Below, piece by piece: positions 31,307 through 40,460 of a stretch of 64,000 nt of DNA. The DNA comes from Singulisphaera sp. GP187. GTDB taxonomy: Bacteria; Planctomycetota; GCA-002687715. Under the pieces are notes generated by a model, which worked only from the letters and a program-made list of their open reading frames with translations, did not search any database and was not told the DNA's origin. The DNA is taken from positions 62,001-126,000 of the forward strand of contig CAMDTN010000001.1 in NCBI GenBank assembly GCA_945907755.1, written 5' to 3'. Both the position numbers and the translations under genes were made by a program. How positions within the stretch are numbered: the stretch's first letter is position 1; each line of letters opens with the position of its first letter.

Positions 31307-32788
31307 ATGTTGCAAGAAACACAGCGCCGGCCGGGCGGGCTGACCGCTTTGGCGGTACTCAACTTCATCTTTGCTGGCTTCAGTCTGATGGGGCTGCTGT
31401 TCATGGCCGTGGCCTTCGTCGTGCTGAGCACAGTGAATGCCGCCGAATTGGACAAAGCCCGTGAGGATATTGCGGCTGCAGTGGGAAATGCGGGGCTTGC
31501 CGCCATCGCAGTGAACATCGCGCTCAGTTTGGTGGCGCTGGTGCTGCAAGTGATTAGTGCCATCGGCCTTTTGCGCATGGCGCCTGTCATGGGCCGCGTC
31601 ATGGGCAACGCCTTCGCAGTGGTCAGCATTGTCGCGGTCGTTGTCAGCGTGGTCATGGGCATTCCCTTCGGCGTGGGCACGGTGATCAATTTGCTGTATC
31701 CGTTGCTGACGCTGCTGCTATTGAACTTCACTTTCCGCGGCGACTTCATTCGTCGCGATGCGGGGCAGTGGGGGGCGGCGGGCGGCGAAGCGGCAGCGAG
31801 CGTGGCGAGTGGCATTAACAGCGCACAGTTTGAAAACGCACTAATCCACAGTGGTGCCTCTGACGCTGCCGGCGGCGTTGCGGGTGCCGCAACAGACTTG
31901 GCCGCCAGCGCAGGCGCACGCCGTGCACTGGTGGCGAGCTTCGGTTGGCGTCACGCGCTGCGCGGTGGCAGTGCCGTTCTGTACTTGCTCACTCTTTTGG
32001 GCGGCGGGCTGATGATCGCAGCGGCTTTCATCAATCCGGTGGAATCGCTGCTGCATGACAGCAAACCGCGGGCTGCGGAGCGCGCGGCGGAAATGCTGCG
32101 CAGCGGCATGGCGGTGGATGCCATCGGTTGGATCACTGGCGCCAGCGAGGCCACCTGTGAGTACTTCGTCAAAGAACAGCCCACGCTGCAAAGTGCCATC
32201 TTGTTGATGCTGCTGGCCTTCATGCCCTTCTTCGCGTGCATGGGTGGCTTCAACCAGACTGCTGGCGAAATCGGCAGCAAAGGCCTGCGTTTCCTTCTGT
32301 TGCGCACCGACCGGCGATCGCTGTTCCTCGGGCGCTTCATGGCGGCGCTCGTGTTTTCCACCATCGGACTGCTGGTGTTGACCGTAGTGACCACGCTGTA
32401 CCTCGCATGGAAGTTGGATTTGTATTCCACGCCGGCGCTGTTGTGGTGGGGCGCGCAGGGCACATTGGCACTGTGGTTGGTGATGCTGCCGCACTTGGCC
32501 GCCACCGCGTGGCTAAGCGCTTCGTTGGACAGCGCATTGGCCGCGTTCTCGTTGAGCATGGCTGTGGTCAGCGTGCCCATCGCGCTGTTGAAGGGCATCG
32601 AAATAGCGGTTGAGAAACTCAGCGATCACAAAATCGCGTGGATCGAACGCTTCATGCCGTGGGGCTGGAAATATGAATTGCTCGACCCGGCGTGGGACAC
32701 TCGCTTGATCGCTTCCGCCATGATGTTGGTGTTCACTGTGGTGTTCCTCGCCGGTGGCCTGCGGCGTTTCCAGGGGAGAGACCTGTGA
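31307..32788 (+). CDS. ABC-2 type permease with extra N-terminal membrane domain
   Basis: 493 residues. The first about 150 residues form a separate four-segment hydrophobic domain (for example LTALAVLNFIFAGFSLMGLL and VVSIVAVVVSVVMGIPFG). A glycine/alanine-rich linker (about 155-210) follows, and then an ABC-2 permease with about six segments. Cues in the permease part are MPFFACMGGFNQTAGEIGSKG and LLLRTDRRSLFLGRFMAAL, the cytoplasmic-loop pattern seen in transporters of the NatB/YhaP type. The start at 31307 is chosen because the hydrophobic domain begins right after; the longer frame to 31214 has no function visible. GTGA overlap couples it to the ATPase gene. Cargo unknown. Confidence 0.78.
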   Translation: MLQETQRRPGGLTALAVLNFIFAGFSLMGLLFMAVAFVVLSTVNAAELDKAREDIAAAVGNAGLAAIAVNIALSLVALVLQVISAIGLLRMAPVMGRVMGNAFAVVSIVAVVVSVVMGIPFGVGTVINLLYPLLTLLLLNFTFRGDFIRRDAGQWGAAGGEAAASVASGINSAQFENALIHSGASDAAGGVAGAATDLAASAGARRALVASFGWRHALRGGSAVLYLLTLLGGGLMIAAAFINPVESLLHDSKPRAAERAAEMLRSGMAVDAIGWITGASEATCEYFVKEQPTLQSAILLMLLAFMPFFACMGGFNQTAGEIGSKGLRFLLLRTDRRSLFLGRFMAALVFSTIGLLVLTVVTTLYLAWKLDLYSTPALLWWGAQGTLALWLVMLPHLAATAWLSASLDSALAAFSLSMAVVSVPIALLKGIEIAVEKLSDHKIAWIERFMPWGWKYELLDPAWDTRLIASAMMLVFTVVFLAGGLRRFQGRDL

Positions 32789-33741: not shown

Positions 33742-34275
33742 ATGCACATTGATTACTTAGCCAATTGCCAGCAGCACACCGACACCATCGCGGGCTGGGT
33801 GTTTGCCGAGTGGGGTTATTTGCGCCCGGGCTTCACTCTGGAAAACGCGACGCGAGAGTTTCGTGAGCGGGCGGTCATCGAGCGCATCCCGTTGGCGCTG
33901 GTTGCGCTGGACGGCGCCGAAGTGATCGGTTGCATCAACATCAAGCTGAGTGAAGACCTCACGCTGCCTGGCGTGACTCCGTGGATTGGCGCTCTGTATG
34001 TGCGCTCCGATTGGCGCCGCAAGTCTGTTGGCTCGCAATTGCTGGCGTTCGCCGAAAGCGTTGCGGCGCGCCTCGGCATCCGCGCGCTGCATCTTTCCGC
34101 GACCGATGCCCTCGCGTTCTACGAGCGTCGCGGCTGGGGCGTCCTCTCGCGCCACTTCCTCCAGGGCGAACATGTCTGCGTAATGGTGAAATATTGCCAA
34201 GATGGCTGCAAAACCGACATGCCGCCTGATTTCATTTGTCCCCCAATATCCCCGCCGGAGACGCCCGCATCATGA
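33742..34275 (+). CDS. GNAT-family N-acetyltransferase with replaced C-terminus
   Basis: Acetyl-CoA-dependent transferase of 177 residues. The central part has the GNAT acetyl-CoA loop (IGALYVRSDWRRKSVGSQLL), beta-bulge strand and the FYERRGWGVL motif near residues 125-134. The last 28 residues after HVCVMVK (from YCQDGCKTDM) do not look like a GNAT end. They coincide with the start of foreign DNA: homology to the second copy of this gene's tail ends exactly at that point (34190). I infer that an insertion replaced the native tail and the frame runs on by chance. It may still be active, since the fold is nearly complete. Confidence 0.82.
   Translation: MHIDYLANCQQHTDTIAGWVFAEWGYLRPGFTLENATREFRERAVIERIPLALVALDGAEVIGCINIKLSEDLTLPGVTPWIGALYVRSDWRRKSVGSQLLAFAESVAARLGIRALHLSATDALAFYERRGWGVLSRHFLQGEHVCVMVKYCQDGCKTDMPPDFICPPISPPETPAS
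34101..34190 (+). repeat. 90-bp direct repeat, left copy (inside GNAT 3' part)
   Basis: Aligns without gaps to 36971-37060, 2870 bp away, with 8 mismatches in 90 bp (91 % identity). Similarity stops sharply on both sides. The pair frames the pentonate dehydratase/lactonase segment like the duplicated ends of an integrated element. Confidence 0.88.
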
Positions 34276-35996
34276 ATACACCCGACGGCAAGCCAAACAG
34301 ACGCAGTCGAGATTGGTATGGCAAGAACGACAAGGACGGTTTCATTCACCGTTCGTGGATGAAAAACCAAGGGTTCCCGGATCATGTATTCGATGGCCGC
34401 CCCGTTATCGGTATCTGCAACACTTGGTCAGAACTTGCCCCCTGCAACTCTGGCCTGCGCGAGTTAGCCGAGGGCGTCAAACGCGGCGTGTGGGAGGCGG
34501 GCGGTTTTCCGGTCGAATTCCCCGTTACTTCGCTGGGCGAAACCCAGATGAAACCCACGGCCATGCTGTTCCGCAACCTGCTCGCCATGGATGTCGAAGA
34601 ATGCATCCGCGCCTACGGCATGGACGGCGTTGTCCTGCTGGGTGGTTGCGACAAAACCACTCCAGGTCAGTTGATGGGGGCGGCAAGCGTGGATCTTCCG
34701 GCCATCGTCGTTTCGTCGGGCCCTATGCTCAACGGTAAATGGCAGGGCAAGGACATCGGGTCAGGCACGGATGTGTGGCGCTTTTCCGAAGCGGTCCGTG
34801 CGGGCGACATGACGCTGAAAGATTTCATCGCCGCCGAATCGGGGATGTCGCGCTCCAAGGGTGTCTGCATGACGATGGGCACTGCCTCAACCATGGCCAG
34901 CCTCGTCGAGGCGATGGGCATGTCGCTGCCGCTCAACGCCGCGCTTCCAGCGGTCGACAGCCGCCGCATGGCGCTGGCACATCTTTCTGGCATCCGCATC
35001 GTCGAGATGGTGAAGGAAGACATCCGCCCTTCTCAGATCCTGACTCGCGGCGCATTTGAAAACGCCATTCTTGCCAACGCCGCGATCGGCGGCTCCACCA
35101 ATGCCGTCGTGCATTTGCTGGCCATCGCAGGCCGCGTCGGTGTCGATCTGCATCTGGAGGATTTCGAAATTGGCTCGGGTATTCCACTGCTGGTCAATTG
35201 CATGCCCTCGGGCAAATACCTTATGGAGGATTTCGCATACGCCGGTGGTATGCCAGTCGTCCTGAAGGAACTTGGGGCCCATCTGCGCAAATCCCAGACC
35301 GTGTTGGGCCGCGATATGTCCGAATACGCCTTGGGCGCTGAGAACTACAACACCGATGTGATCCGCCCCTTTGACGGTCCCGTCAAACCCGCTGCGGGCA
35401 TCCGCGTATTGAAGGGCAACCTCGCCCCGAACGGCGCTATTGTCAAACCCTCTGCTGCAACCCCCGCGCTGTTGGAACACGAAGGCTTCGCCCATGTGTT
35501 CGACAGCATCGAAGACATGAAAGCCAGCATCGACCGCGACGACCTTCCTGTCACGGCGGACACCATACTTGTCCTCAAAGGCTGCGGCCCCAAGGGTTAT
35601 CCCGGTATGCCAGAAGTCGGCAACATGCCGCTCCCGGCGCGTCTGGTGCGGCAGGGCGTGCGCGACATGATCCGGGTTTCGGACGCCAGAATGTCGGGCA
35701 CCGCATATGGCACCGTCGTGTTGCATGTCTCACCTGAAGCCCAAGCAGGCGGCACCCTTGCCCTCGTGAAAACCGGCGACCGCATCAAGCTATCTGCCCG
35801 CGACGGCGTCCTCGAACTTCTCGTGCCCGAGGCCGAACTGGCCCAACGCCGCGCCGCATGGATCCCAGACGAGCCTCATTACACTCGTGGCTTTGCAAAG
35901 CTTTATGTCGATCATGTGCAGCAATCCCACCTTGGCGCCGACCTTGATTTCCTTGTCGGCAAAGACACCCGCCCTGTCACCCGCGAGAGCCATTGA
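34272..35996 (+). CDS. Sugar-acid dehydratase, IlvD/Edd family (L-arabonate or other pentonate dehydratase type)
   Basis: 574-residue Fe-S dehydratase. Cluster cysteines are visible in ICNTWSELAPCN (first half), GGCDKTTPG and SKGVCMTMGTAS. The IlvD/Edd pattern continues with GGSTNAVVHL, AYAGGMP, LKGCGPKGYPGMPE and MSGTAYG. Length and the EYALGAENYNTDVIRP stretch fit the pentonate dehydratases rather than dihydroxy-acid dehydratase (longer Edd and IlvD patterns differ). The start at 34272 gives the usual MNTPDGK end. Base use (many GTC, ATC, CTC, CCC codons) contrasts with neighbours that favour GTG, TTG and CTG. It is followed after 62 bp by the lactonase; together they would catalyse lactone opening and dehydration in a non-phosphorylating pentose pathway. 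Likely acquired. Confidence 0.9.
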   Translation: MNTPDGKPNRRSRDWYGKNDKDGFIHRSWMKNQGFPDHVFDGRPVIGICNTWSELAPCNSGLRELAEGVKRGVWEAGGFPVEFPVTSLGETQMKPTAMLFRNLLAMDVEECIRAYGMDGVVLLGGCDKTTPGQLMGAASVDLPAIVVSSGPMLNGKWQGKDIGSGTDVWRFSEAVRAGDMTLKDFIAAESGMSRSKGVCMTMGTASTMASLVEAMGMSLPLNAALPAVDSRRMALAHLSGIRIVEMVKEDIRPSQILTRGAFENAILANAAIGGSTNAVVHLLAIAGRVGVDLHLEDFEIGSGIPLLVNCMPSGKYLMEDFAYAGGMPVVLKELGAHLRKSQTVLGRDMSEYALGAENYNTDVIRPFDGPVKPAAGIRVLKGNLAPNGAIVKPSAATPALLEHEGFAHVFDSIEDMKASIDRDDLPVTADTILVLKGCGPKGYPGMPEVGNMPLPARLVRQGVRDMIRVSDARMSGTAYGTVVLHVSPEAQAGGTLALVKTGDRIKLSARDGVLELLVPEAELAQRRAAWIPDEPHYTRGFAKLYVDHVQQSHLGADLDFLVGKDTRPVTRESH

Positions 35997-36058
35997 TGCT
36001 AGTCTTGCTGACCTGCACGCTTGCGCGCGAATGATCGCCAAAGCAATAAGGCCCAAGC

Positions 36059-36910
36059 ATGATCCATGACCACCGCCGCTGCGAGTTGGGGGAAGGCCTG
36101 CTCTGGCATCCCATTCGGGAGCAACTGTTTTGGTTCGATATCACCGGTAAGGCCATGCTGTCTCAGGATCGCACGGGACAACGCCTATGGCGCTTTCCCG
36201 AAATGGTTTCCGCCGCAGGGTGGGTCAGCCAGGACACTCTGCTGATCGCCAGTGAGCGCGGCATTTTTCTATTCGATATTGAATCTGAAGCGGTCGAATC
36301 TCTTTGCCTTCTGGAGGCTGACAGACCGCAAAACCGTTCGAACGACGGCCGAGCCGATCCGCAGGGCGGCTTCTGGATCGGGACCATGAGCAAGACTAAC
36401 GCCGCAGGGGCGGGCGCTATCTACCGTTATTACAAGGGTGAAATCCGGTGCCTCTACAACGGGATAACAATCCCGAATGCGATTTGCTTCACGCCCGACG
36501 GCAGGACCGCGCAATTCACTGACACCGCCCATGGTCGCGTGATGCGGGTGTCGCTTAACACCGAAGGCTGGCCAAGTGGCGAGCCCGCAGTGTTCCTTGA
36601 TCTCGCAGCACAAGGTCGCGCTCCCGACGGTGCCGTCATCGATGTCGATGGTGTCTTGTGGTTGGCCGAATGGGGTTCAGCGCGCGTAGCAGCCTATGCG
36701 CCTGATGCGAGCTTTCTGCGTGCCATTCCTTTCGATGCGCCTCACACCTCGTGCCCCGCCTTTGGTGGACCAGATCTGGGCACCTTGTTCTGCACATCGG
36801 CGCTGAAGGGAATGGATGCTGCCGCCCGCGCCGCGCAGCCCGACTCCGGCAAGACTTTCGCTGCGCCCGGCGTTGCGCGTGGGCAAATAGAACACAGGGT
36901 CCTCCTGTGA
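36059..36910 (+). CDS. SMP-30/gluconolactonase-family lactonase (probable aldonolactonase)
   Basis: 283-residue six-bladed beta-propeller. Conserved metal ligands can be placed: glutamate in CELGEGLLW (about 8-12), asparagines in NRSNDGRADPQG and TIPNAICF, and aspartate in GAVIDVDG. The sequence GGFWIGTMS is typical of the family. It would open a sugar lactone to the aldonate that the adjacent dehydratase uses. Codon preference matches the dehydratase, so both came together. The stop at 36910 is 60 bp from the decayed GNAT tail at 36971. Confidence 0.88.
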   Translation: MIHDHRRCELGEGLLWHPIREQLFWFDITGKAMLSQDRTGQRLWRFPEMVSAAGWVSQDTLLIASERGIFLFDIESEAVESLCLLEADRPQNRSNDGRADPQGGFWIGTMSKTNAAGAGAIYRYYKGEIRCLYNGITIPNAICFTPDGRTAQFTDTAHGRVMRVSLNTEGWPSGEPAVFLDLAAQGRAPDGAVIDVDGVLWLAEWGSARVAAYAPDASFLRAIPFDAPHTSCPAFGGPDLGTLFCTSALKGMDAAARAAQPDSGKTFAAPGVARGQIEHRVLL

Positions 36911-36970
36911 AGCGCAGCCTAGGCGATTGAAATTATCCCGAGCACTGGACTGAAGGTTGTGTTGCGCACC

Positions 36971-37060
36971 GACCGCCGCTCTCGCGTTCTACGAGCGTCG
37001 CGGCTGGGTCGTCCTCTCGCGCCATTTCCTATAGGGCGAACATGTCTGCGTGATGGTGAA
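36971..37060 (+). repeat. 90-bp direct repeat, right copy
   Basis: Mate of 34101-34190, with 8 mismatches. The differences include CTCCAG to CTATAG, which creates a stop in the GNAT frame. Flanking sequence on both sides differs from the left copy. Confidence 0.88.
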
Positions 37061-37091
37061 GCCCGCGGGCCCACGCGCTGACATTCCTTGA
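36972..37091 (+). pseudogene. Decayed GNAT 3'-end fragment
   Basis: In the GNAT frame this reads TAALAFYERRGWVVLSRHFL, an internal TAG, then GEHVCVMVKPAGPRADIP and a stop. It covers only the last about 40 codons of the gene at 33742. The ending after VMVK differs from the upstream gene and may be the native C-terminus displaced by the insertion. The upstream part of the gene is missing, so it cannot be functional. Confidence 0.75.
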
Positions 37092-37157
37092 CAGTCTTGC
37101 GCTGCGCTACACTGCTCCGTCGAATCGAAGTTGGGCCGACAAAATAGGAATGCAAAA

Positions 37158-37382
37158 ATGAAGGCAAGCTCAAACTGCCCGAAGTGCAATGGCTCGGTCG
37201 AGGTCGGTTACGTGCTCGACAAGTCGTTGCAGGTTACTGCTGCGTGCTGGGTTGCCGGTGAACCACCGACGACGTTCATAGGCAAGCGATCCTCGAAGGA
37301 GGGGCATGGGCCGCGCATCAGAGCCGTGAGATGTACGAAGTGCGCGTTCCTCGAGCTGTATGCGGATGGACCATTAGAGTGA
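37158..37382 (+). CDS. Small zinc-ribbon protein (DUF6487-like)
   Basis: 74 residues with two CxxC pairs: CPKC near the N-terminus (8-11) and CTKC near residue 61. The middle reads VEVGYVLDKS and CWVAGEPPTTF. The pattern CPxC...G(Y/F)VLD...W..G.P...C..C matches a family of small zinc-ribbon proteins scattered among bacteria. AGGA lies 8 nt before the ATG. Function unknown. A 5'-truncated relative lies at 38506-38724 behind the next gene. Confidence 0.75.
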   Translation: MKASSNCPKCNGSVEVGYVLDKSLQVTAACWVAGEPPTTFIGKRSSKEGHGPRIRAVRCTKCAFLELYADGPLE

Positions 37383-37523
37383 TGGGCGCAGCTCAGCCTT
37401 CGCAGTTGACTTACGACATTCGGCGGCGGCAATATGATCGTCGTTGCACTGAAATTCTCTGCCCGGTTCGGGGTTGAGGGAGTAGCCACGCCAACCACTT
37501 TTTGCAACGCGAAAGGGCACACC

Positions 37524-38507
37524 ATGAGGGTTTTCGGAACGACCGCTCTGCTGATCTTGGCGTCGGTTCTCACTTCGGTTCCTTGTCTACAGACTAGCTA
37601 CGACCCCCTTCTCACCACCAAAGATCTGCCCGAGCAACAGGACATGGTTGTCAAGGATGAGAAGCGCTCGCGCGTGATTCCGATCCGCGTTTATCTCCCC
37701 AAGGACAAGGCGCTCGCAGCCGTCATTCTCTTCAGCCATGGCCTCGGTGGCAACCGCGAAGGCTCGGCGTTCCTCGGCAACCACTGGGCCTTGCGCGGAT
37801 ATGTCGCCGTCTTTCTGCAACATCCGGGAAGCGACGACAGCGTTTGGAAAGACAAGCCTGCCGCCCAGCGCATGGCCGCGATGGAGCAAGCAGCAAACAT
37901 AGAGAACTTCCAGCTCCGCGTCCAAGACGTTTCCGCCGTCATCAATCAACTCGAATTCTGGAACAAAGAAAACTCTCATCCTCTCGCGGGACGGTTGGAC
38001 ATGAAGCGCATCGGCATGTCGGGCCACTCGTTCGGCGCGGTCACGACGCAGGCGGTGAGCGGTCAGGCCGCGCGAATCGGGAAGGGGTTCACGGACTCAA
38101 GAATCAAGACGGCTGTCATGATGAGTCCGAGCATTCCCCGTGGCGACGGCGACCTCAAGCGGGCGTTCGGAGGCGTGAAGATCCCGTGGATGTTGCTCAC
38201 CGGGACCAAGGACACCGCTCCCATTGGAGGGGCTGATGTGAAGTCCAGGCTCGCCGTATTTCCGGCCTTGCCGCTAGGCGGAAAGTACGAACTGGTTCTG
38301 GACAAGGCCGAGCACTCCGCCTTCACCGAGCGCGCCTTGCCCGGAGAGACGGAGAAGCGGAACCCGAACCATCATCGGGCCATTCGCGCGGTCACAACGG
38401 CGTTCTGGGATGCCTACCTTCGCGAGGATGCCGAGGCCAAGGTGTGGCTCGACGGCGCGGAGGTGCGCAGCGTGCTCGAGAAGGACGACCAGTGGCAGAA
38501 GAAATGA
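37524..38507 (+). CDS. Exported dienelactone-hydrolase-like alpha/beta hydrolase
   Basis: 327 residues. A signal segment MRVFGTTALLILASVLTSVP leads the protein. The oxyanion region is LFSHGLGGNREG. The nucleophile elbow is IGMSGHSFGAVTTQ (GHSFG; serine about 174). The aspartate is probably in TGTKDTAP and the histidine in KAEHSAF. The set matches predicted dienelactone hydrolases and PAF-acetylhydrolase-like enzymes, exported. The start at 37524 has AAAGG upstream. A longer open frame to 37434 lacks a ribosome site. Its stop codon overlaps the breakpoint of the truncated zinc-ribbon copy, so the gene itself may have arrived by an insertion. Confidence 0.85.
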   Translation: MRVFGTTALLILASVLTSVPCLQTSYDPLLTTKDLPEQQDMVVKDEKRSRVIPIRVYLPKDKALAAVILFSHGLGGNREGSAFLGNHWALRGYVAVFLQHPGSDDSVWKDKPAAQRMAAMEQAANIENFQLRVQDVSAVINQLEFWNKENSHPLAGRLDMKRIGMSGHSFGAVTTQAVSGQAARIGKGFTDSRIKTAVMMSPSIPRGDGDLKRAFGGVKIPWMLLTGTKDTAPIGGADVKSRLAVFPALPLGGKYELVLDKAEHSAFTERALPGETEKRNPNHHRAIRAVTTAFWDAYLREDAEAKVWLDGAEVRSVLEKDDQWQKK

Positions 38508-38724
38508 GCAGGGCTTCGTGCTCGACAACACTTATGGCGCGCGAGTGGTTAGCCAGTGGGTGGCAGGCGCCCCCATGAAGTCGTTCTGGACAGGCACGAA
38601 GTTGCCCGATGAGAAGCTCATTCCCATCGGGACCTACCGCTGTTCTTCTTGCGGCTACCTCGAGTCGTATGCGCGGCCTGAATTCGCCGCTCGGCTTGTG
38701 CCCCGGGGTAGGCTGAAGGGGTAG
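38506..38724 (+). pseudogene. 5'-truncated zinc-ribbon gene (relative of 37158-37382)
   Basis: The frame starting at 38506 reads EQGFVLDNTYGARVVSQWVA and later TYRCSSCGYLESYARPEF, up to the TAG at 38722-38724. It corresponds position by position to the intact gene's EVGYVLDKS, CWVAGEP and VRCTKCAFLELYADGP, but lacks the start codon and the first CPxC pair. The break falls within 2 bases of the hydrolase stop. It has no start of its own, so it is judged a remnant. The longer frame in the same phase upstream is antisense-like noise within the hydrolase gene. Confidence 0.8.
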
Positions 38725-38735
38725 CCGCACGCACG

Positions 38736-40460
38736 ATGGGTGCGAGGCTGCGCACTGTGAGCCAAATACCAATGACGCCGGAAGAGCCAGACTGGAAACA
38801 GCTTTCTGAGAGCGTGCGCTCGTGGCTGCGGTCGTCACCCGAAGCGCGGTGCTCCGCGCTGCGTTTGGTGGGCTGGTTGGTCAACACCATCAACGAGGCG
38901 CAGCAAGAGACTGGCGCAAGTGGCGCGGCGCAGCGCACGGAAACGGAATCGGAATCGCAAGCGAAGTGTGCAGCGGAAGTCGCAACCGCAACGCCAACGG
39001 TGCAGCAAGAACCCTTGCCCTTCGTTGTGGATGGTGCGCCGCTCACTGCAGAGCCGTTGGCCACAACGCTATTCACAGCGCTATCCACAGCGCCAGCCGC
39101 AGTGAGCGCGGCTTCCCACCGCGAACCGGAGTTAGAGCCGGCGGTCGCCGCAGCGCTGATCAATCAAGGCCGCATCACGCGCTCGCAGAGCGTCGTCATC
39201 AACGCGCTGCCGCCAGCGCCCGTTCGCAAAGTGCCGGTGGATTTAGCGGTGCTCGCGCAACGCCTGCGCACCAAAGCCAAGGCCTGCCGTCTGTGCGCCG
39301 ACCGACGCGCACTTGGACCGCCCACCGGCGCCATCAATCCAGAACACCGTGCGCGCTTCGACAAGCTCATCATCGAAGCCAAGAGCGTGCCCAACTGCTA
39401 CCTGTGGATGCTGCATTGGCAGGTGGATTTGCCGGGCGAGGGAGCGCTGCGCTTGATGGCAGAATCTTTCGACAATCTCGCGGCAGTGATCGAAGCGGCG
39501 CGCGACATATCTGCAGAGTCACGTTTCGAAGTGACGGAACTGCGTGCACTGTTGGAGCTCCTGTCCGAGTGCCAGTCTGCGCTGCGCGTTCTGGTGATGG
39601 AGAAGACCAGTGTCACCGAGGACTCCGATCAGCTCATCGCGTTTGGCTGGCTGCGCGACGCCACCGATGCCAGTGGCGTTTATGTCGAGCGCTACATGCG
39701 CCTGAACGACCCGGCGGACCCCGAAATGTGGGCCGAGCGCGCGCAACGCGTGCAACAGTTGAACGCAGCGGTGTCTAACCGCAAGGAGAACGCGCGCCAA
39801 TTGGACAAGGCTTGGGAAAAGTTGCGCTGGCACGCCAAGCGCATTCCAGATTTGGGAGCGGACAAAGCTCGCGAAGATTGGAGCCGCGTGTATTCGAGTG
39901 TGGATTACTTGCTGGAGCGCGGCGTGCAACCGTCGAATGCGGATTTGCGCCAAGTGCTGCTGCCGGTGATCGAAGTTCGTCCCACTGATGCAGTGCCTTC
40001 GCAGGGGTGGACGCTGGTGCTGGAAGCCATCGATCAGTGGCTGGCTCACGAAGAAGCGGTGGGCCCGCCGTCCGCTGCTCCCAAGGAACAACCGGCACAT
40101 GTGCTGCAAGCCGCAGAGTTGCTGCAAGGTGCGCGGGTGGTTCTGGTGGGGGGCGACGAGCGCCCAGAATCGCGCAAGGCGCTGGTGCGCGATCTGCGCC
40201 TTGGCGAACTGGAGTGGATCAGCTCGCGCGAACATTCGTCGTTAGAGAAATTCACCCCAGCCATCGTGCGCCCCGAAACGAGGCTGGTGTTGCTGTTGAT
40301 CCGCTGGAGCTCGCACTCCTACGAAGGCATCAGCGACATCTGCGCCAAGCACAACAAGGTGTTTGTGCGCATTCCGAAGGGCTACAGCCCGTCCATGATT
40401 GCGCACCATGTGCTGGAAAACGCCAGCGAGCAGTTGCGCGCCATGCGCCCCGGCATTTGA
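38736..40460 (+). CDS. Large protein with C-terminal DUF2325 domain
   Basis: About 574 residues. The first 45 are helical (WKQLSESVRSWLRSS; LRLVGWLVNTINEAQQ). A low-complexity alanine/threonine/proline linker runs to about 160. A helical middle part follows and includes a short CRLCADRR pair. The last about 115 residues fit DUF2325: a strand-loop ARVVLVGGDERPES, RLVLLLIRWSSHSYEGI and NKVFVRIPKGYSPSMI, a Rossmann-like layout in which H of SSHS is a conserved feature. Starts at 38772 or 38757 are also possible; no clear ribosome site decides. The role of DUF2325 is unknown. It lies just outside the insertion patch, with codon use like the rest of the window. Confidence 0.75.
   Translation: MGARLRTVSQIPMTPEEPDWKQLSESVRSWLRSSPEARCSALRLVGWLVNTINEAQQETGASGAAQRTETESESQAKCAAEVATATPTVQQEPLPFVVDGAPLTAEPLATTLFTALSTAPAAVSAASHREPELEPAVAAALINQGRITRSQSVVINALPPAPVRKVPVDLAVLAQRLRTKAKACRLCADRRALGPPTGAINPEHRARFDKLIIEAKSVPNCYLWMLHWQVDLPGEGALRLMAESFDNLAAVIEAARDISAESRFEVTELRALLELLSECQSALRVLVMEKTSVTEDSDQLIAFGWLRDATDASGVYVERYMRLNDPADPEMWAERAQRVQQLNAAVSNRKENARQLDKAWEKLRWHAKRIPDLGADKAREDWSRVYSSVDYLLERGVQPSNADLRQVLLPVIEVRPTDAVPSQGWTLVLEAIDQWLAHEEAVGPPSAAPKEQPAHVLQAAELLQGARVVLVGGDERPESRKALVRDLRLGELEWISSREHSSLEKFTPAIVRPETRLVLLLIRWSSHSYEGISDICAKHNKVFVRIPKGYSPSMIAHHVLENASEQLRAMRPGI

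Follow-up and report, generated by a model that had tools for sequence, protein, structure and literature searches.

Partial duplication of a gene end around foreign DNA has been produced experimentally in E. coli, where, during tests of homology-facilitated illegitimate recombination, a single crossover of an end-trimmed, recircularised molecule yielded gene-end duplications of 109–950 bp (PMC3240628). In T6SS/Rhs loci, insertion into a gene end shifts the old 3' end downstream (PMC5361080). Homology-facilitated illegitimate recombination, described in Streptococcus, Acinetobacter and Pseudomonas, uses 3–10 bp of microhomology to take up about 1–3 kb of foreign DNA, and its typical products delete recipient DNA. 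The operon relevant to the gene content described here is the galactose-degradation operon of Rhodobacterales, with the order dehydratase-SDR-(kinase)-aldolase-lactonase-beta-galactosidase (dehydratase-SDR-lactonase-beta-galactosidase in locus L040).

We analysed a window of 64,000 nucleotides (the whole stretch of DNA under study) in which a GNAT acetyltransferase gene is followed by foreign genes and then by a second copy of its own 3' part. As in the E. coli products, the foreign DNA has the gene on one side and a second copy of part of the gene's end on the other. In contrast to them, the homology is only about 83–91 bp, the copies are no longer identical and the foreign DNA carries internal deletions, and it is from this product that we infer the event itself. 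The shifted old gene end resembles those of T6SS/Rhs loci, but there are no effector/immunity or Rhs genes here, and the left copy retains the GNAT fold and gains no new domain. The putative 6 bp of microhomology at the right edge would fall within the range for homology-facilitated illegitimate recombination, although the recipient DNA is duplicated instead of deleted. The Rhodobacterales operon shares the gene order and the overlap of lactonase stop and beta-galactosidase start, but only two genes are intact here and the SDR, aldolase and beta-galactosidase genes are lost or reduced to scraps. The features are as follows.

33742–34275, + strand: GNAT acetyltransferase ORF (Pfam Acetyltransf_1, 2.5e-13), native up to 34190.
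34100–34190, + strand: left repeat copy, in frame within the GNAT ORF.
34191–34220, no strand: left junction zone, at most 30 bp, with no parent match among the Rhodobacterales loci compared.
34221–34271, + strand: Rhodobacterales-type intergenic stretch with AATATCCCCGCCGGAG at 34245–34260 (73.6% over 72 bp to L048).
34272–35996, + strand: intact IlvD/Edd-family sugar-acid dehydratase (Pfam ILVD_EDD; NCBIfam PRK06131 subfamily, above cut-off).
35997–36058, + strand: 62-bp spacer of SDR-gene scraps, comprising the start of the SDR gene and a piece from its interior at 36008–36032 (LT[C]TLARE).
36059–36910, + strand: intact SMP-30/gluconolactonase-family lactonase (Pfam SGL, 2.3e-63).
36907–36948, + strand: beta-galactosidase 5' scrap, whose GTG start overlaps the lactonase stop, with a stop at codon 8.
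36949–36978, + strand: second beta-galactosidase scrap (GLKVVLGTPTA region), with a 2-bp deletion.
36970–37060, + strand: right repeat copy, a decayed GNAT 3' fragment, unambiguous from 36978, with TAG at 37032–37034.
37061–37091, + strand: presumed original GNAT tail, PAGPRADIP-stop, judged from sequence and frame.

The two repeat copies are 91 nt long, 2870 apart and identical at 83/91 positions (91%), with a match of the right copy at E = 4.4e-31 against chance. Homology stops abruptly on either flank of both copies. The eight mismatches fall at 34106, 34107, 34110, 34139, 34155, 34161, 34162 and 34182; 5/8 are at third codon positions, a lean that with n=8 is below what significance needs. 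After the TAG, the frame of the right copy reads VMVKPAGPRADIP-stop. Since positions 36970–36977 (CGACCGCC), at the start of the right copy, are also compatible with foreign beta-galactosidase sequence, the unambiguous duplication amounts to about 83 bp (36978–37060). The first-pass annotation had reported a repeat with eight mismatches that diverges at once on both sides, its left copy in the 3' part of the GNAT gene and its right copy a decayed fragment with a stop, and all of this is borne out. It had also proposed searching the genome for further copies of the unit, and this pair is all that the 2.68-Mb genome (94 contigs) contains.

The repeat sits within coding sequence, and its end falls about 10 codons short of the presumed old GNAT stop. 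After the residues MVK, the GNAT tail has been replaced by inserted sequence, which supplies the last ~27 codons (YCQDGCKTDMPPDFICPPISPPETPAS, stop), and the gene end is not restored. The new TGA (34273–34275) overlaps the ATG of the dehydratase (ATGA, 34272–34275). Because of this overlap, the two genes may be translationally coupled; lying 3' of a permease-ATPase-GNAT run, dehydratase and lactonase could also be co-transcribed with it. An uninterrupted GNAT homologue, for which the first-pass annotation had expected an ending like KPAGPRADIP, was sought in the 59 nearest genomes, 392 genomes of the phylum and a plasmid collection, all of which gave matches only below about 35% identity, and viral contigs gave none.

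Both intact genes are closest to those of Rhodobacterales, a distant group. The dehydratase has 81% nucleotide identity to L039 (a Pseudorhodobacter assembly) and 79% to L040; the lactonase has 76% amino acid and 73% nucleotide identity to L039. No donor sequence closer than 81% was found in the collections searched. Codon usage of the two genes lies beyond the host range, toward the Rhodobacterales side, and the GNAT gene, a DUF6487-like gene and a hydrolase gene further downstream likewise depart from the range seen in native genes. Genome G001, from the same genus, has the genes for the permease, the ATPase and the 574-aa protein next to one another, with a gap of about 75 bp between the latter two. 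Neither G001 nor a second genome of the genus, G002, has the GNAT gene, the hydrolase gene or the foreign segment, so the region at 33.7–38.7 kb is an accessory region built by several acquisitions. Judged from its distant closest relatives and its absence from same-genus genomes, the segment is horizontally acquired from a Rhodobacterales-like source, in agreement with its earlier description as foreign.

Two neighbouring genes were also characterised. The best relative of the hydrolase (37434–38507), at 69% amino acid identity, belongs to the same phylum but to a different family. The 574-aa protein gene (38736–40460) has no Pfam or PADLOC match, and has an orthologue in G001 (56%) and none in G002. 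Defence-system profiles gave no match at the locus.

The dehydratase belongs to the IlvD/Edd family by a full-length profile match with the motifs CNTW, GGCDKT and KGVCMT. Against the NCBIfam equivalog PRK13016 (L-arabinonate dehydratase) it scores 813 bits, below the curated cut-off of 882, and we therefore assign it no substrate. No second dehydratase copy was found in the same genome. At columns invariant in relatives, the dehydratase has one change in 262 and the lactonase none in 33, which looks like the pattern of functional orthologues. Compared pairwise with the closest relatives, the dehydratase has a pN/pS of 0.12–0.13 and the lactonase one of 0.23–0.24; these low values probably mostly record the period spent in the donor lineage. 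The KDPG/KDPGal aldolase family (PF01081) has no match in the genome, so the original pathway is incomplete here.

The first-pass annotation held that exactly a dehydratase and a lactonase lie between the repeats. These are indeed the intact genes, but scraps of other genes from the same operon lie between and after them. In the spacer between the two genes, the SDR-internal piece matches the SDR gene of L049 at 23/25 bases; we also considered the spacer as an aldolase tail and rejected this in favour of SDR scraps. After the lactonase, the beta-galactosidase start MKRTLGVCYYPEHW is placed identically in more than 40 Rhodobacterales loci. The two beta-galactosidase scraps are joined by an internal deletion, jumping after the PEHW codons to the GLKVVLGTPTA region. 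The 5' scrap carries its one stop plus further non-synonymous changes within 14 conserved codons. For each of the three scrap matches (SDR and both beta-galactosidase pieces), 0/300 shuffled sequences reached the observed score. The SDR and beta-galactosidase scraps occupy the positions predicted by the Rhodobacterales operon order. Before the dehydratase, the intergenic stretch (resemblance at 34221–34265) matches L068 and L069 in addition to L048, and its AATATCCCCGCCGGAG motif occurs once in the window and again in other Rhodobacterales loci. Remnants of a donor operon thus flank the intact genes. Because its traces persist between, after and before them, the segment is not a cargo of two genes but what internal deletions left of a piece of one foreign operon.

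At the right junction, beta-galactosidase sequence (...CACGCCGACCGCC...) meets GNAT sequence (...CGCGACCGATGCC...) at a common CGACCG (36970–36975). These 6 bp are shared by both junction parents, as judged from the beta-galactosidase genes of relatives. The right edge would then be a microhomology join inside the beta-galactosidase gene, fitting illegitimate or RecA-type recombination and not attachment sites. The 25 bp around this junction (36957–36981) also resemble part of the permease gene (32295–32319) at 22/25 bases, 16 of them in an exact run. Such a 16-bp match within 5 kb is found for about 0.5% of 30-bp segments. The resemblance could stem from a copied patch of the permease gene or from chance; we set the copied patch aside, as beta-galactosidase accounts for these bases in their context.

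The locus is probably best explained by an operon fragment that recombination captured within the 3' part of this GNAT gene, with partial duplication of the gene end and subsequent deletions. A piece of a Rhodobacterales galactose/galactonate-type operon would have recombined into the GNAT 3' part, leaving foreign DNA flanked by about 83–91 bp of GNAT end. Most likely, a foreign molecule that had already gained the GNAT end at the microhomology joined the chromosome in one event, by a single crossover or by copy-back. The duplicated GNAT piece may have been short originally or trimmed later from a longer duplication; there are precedents for either course. The displaced GNAT 3' end would have decayed afterwards, and deletions would have removed most of the SDR gene (with the aldolase gene, if present) and of the beta-galactosidase gene, so that the dehydratase and lactonase ORFs alone stayed intact. 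Because no insertion-free GNAT allele was found, the duplication step is a reconstruction, and it may pre- or post-date the capture. The right copy (8/91) and the beta-galactosidase scrap have decayed to a similar degree, by small numbers, in keeping with one old event.

A variant of this explanation, which we regard as possible but rather unlikely, starts with the GNAT region duplicated in tandem, or with Campbell-type integration of a larger molecule that had long GNAT homology, and takes the 90 bp as what independent deletions left over. Several internal deletions are present in the foreign DNA, so trimming of its edges would be expected, and the third-position lean of the mismatches looks as if both copies had been coding for a while. 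This variant nevertheless requires two more deletions, and eight mismatches are insufficient for significance.

It is improbable that the segment is an assembly or binning artefact, with contaminating Rhodobacterales DNA joined into a host contig. The genome is probably a metagenome assembly, because it consists of 94 contigs and has no 16S match; this fragmentation speaks for such an artefact, as does the fact that the nearest donors are likewise metagenome assemblies. However, host sequence flanks the segment on both sides within one contig, a shared k-mer cannot account for copies that differ at eight bases, and the SDR and beta-galactosidase genes are already decayed scraps, unlike those of an intact contaminant genome. 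The first-pass annotation took the divergence of the copies as an argument against a simple assembly error; the decayed state of the right copy and the scraps tells against a recent one.

The earlier proposal of an integrated element with attachment-like ends is very improbable. In this reading a site-specific recombinase would have inserted the segment at the GNAT 3' end, and the repeats would be attL and attR. Foreign DNA does lie between direct repeats of a gene end, the left of which keeps the GNAT frame open, but the repeat stops about 10 codons early and leaves the tail unrestored, the copies are 91% identical where a near-identical core would be expected, the content is a truncated chromosomal operon with its edge a microhomology join inside beta-galactosidase, the genome holds no further repeat copy, and there is no recombinase in or beside the segment. 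The absence of an integrase had been remarked on already; the nearest tyrosine recombinase (PF00589) in the genome is on the same contig, at a distance of about 60 kb (G000:C1:35853-36263, about 26 kb ahead of the first base of the window, with the insertion at C1:96190). An element with the same ends is also absent from the rest of the genome, 59 relatives, 80 Rhodobacterales loci and plasmid records.

Immediately downstream, positions 37131–38724 hold in series a DUF6487-like zinc-ribbon gene (37131–37382), the hydrolase gene and a 5'-truncated DUF6487-like fragment. The fragment (~38506–38724) begins at the hydrolase stop and has 39% amino acid identity over 57 residues (E 2e-8). This series echoes the pattern of gene, cargo and gene end. 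We consider it highly doubtful that the GNAT and DUF6487-like cases reflect a recurrent local process in the lineage, by which foreign genes are inserted at gene ends with duplication of the 3' part.

Capture and erosion of an operon fragment, as preferred above, resembles common recombinational gene transfer more than the work of a new mobile element. Short repeats of a gene end in direct orientation on both sides of foreign genes are accordingly not necessarily attachment sites. The locus offers a readable case of a foreign operon fragment taken up with no mobile element involved and afterwards reduced to the retained genes, in which the new genes may have become coupled to a resident reading frame.
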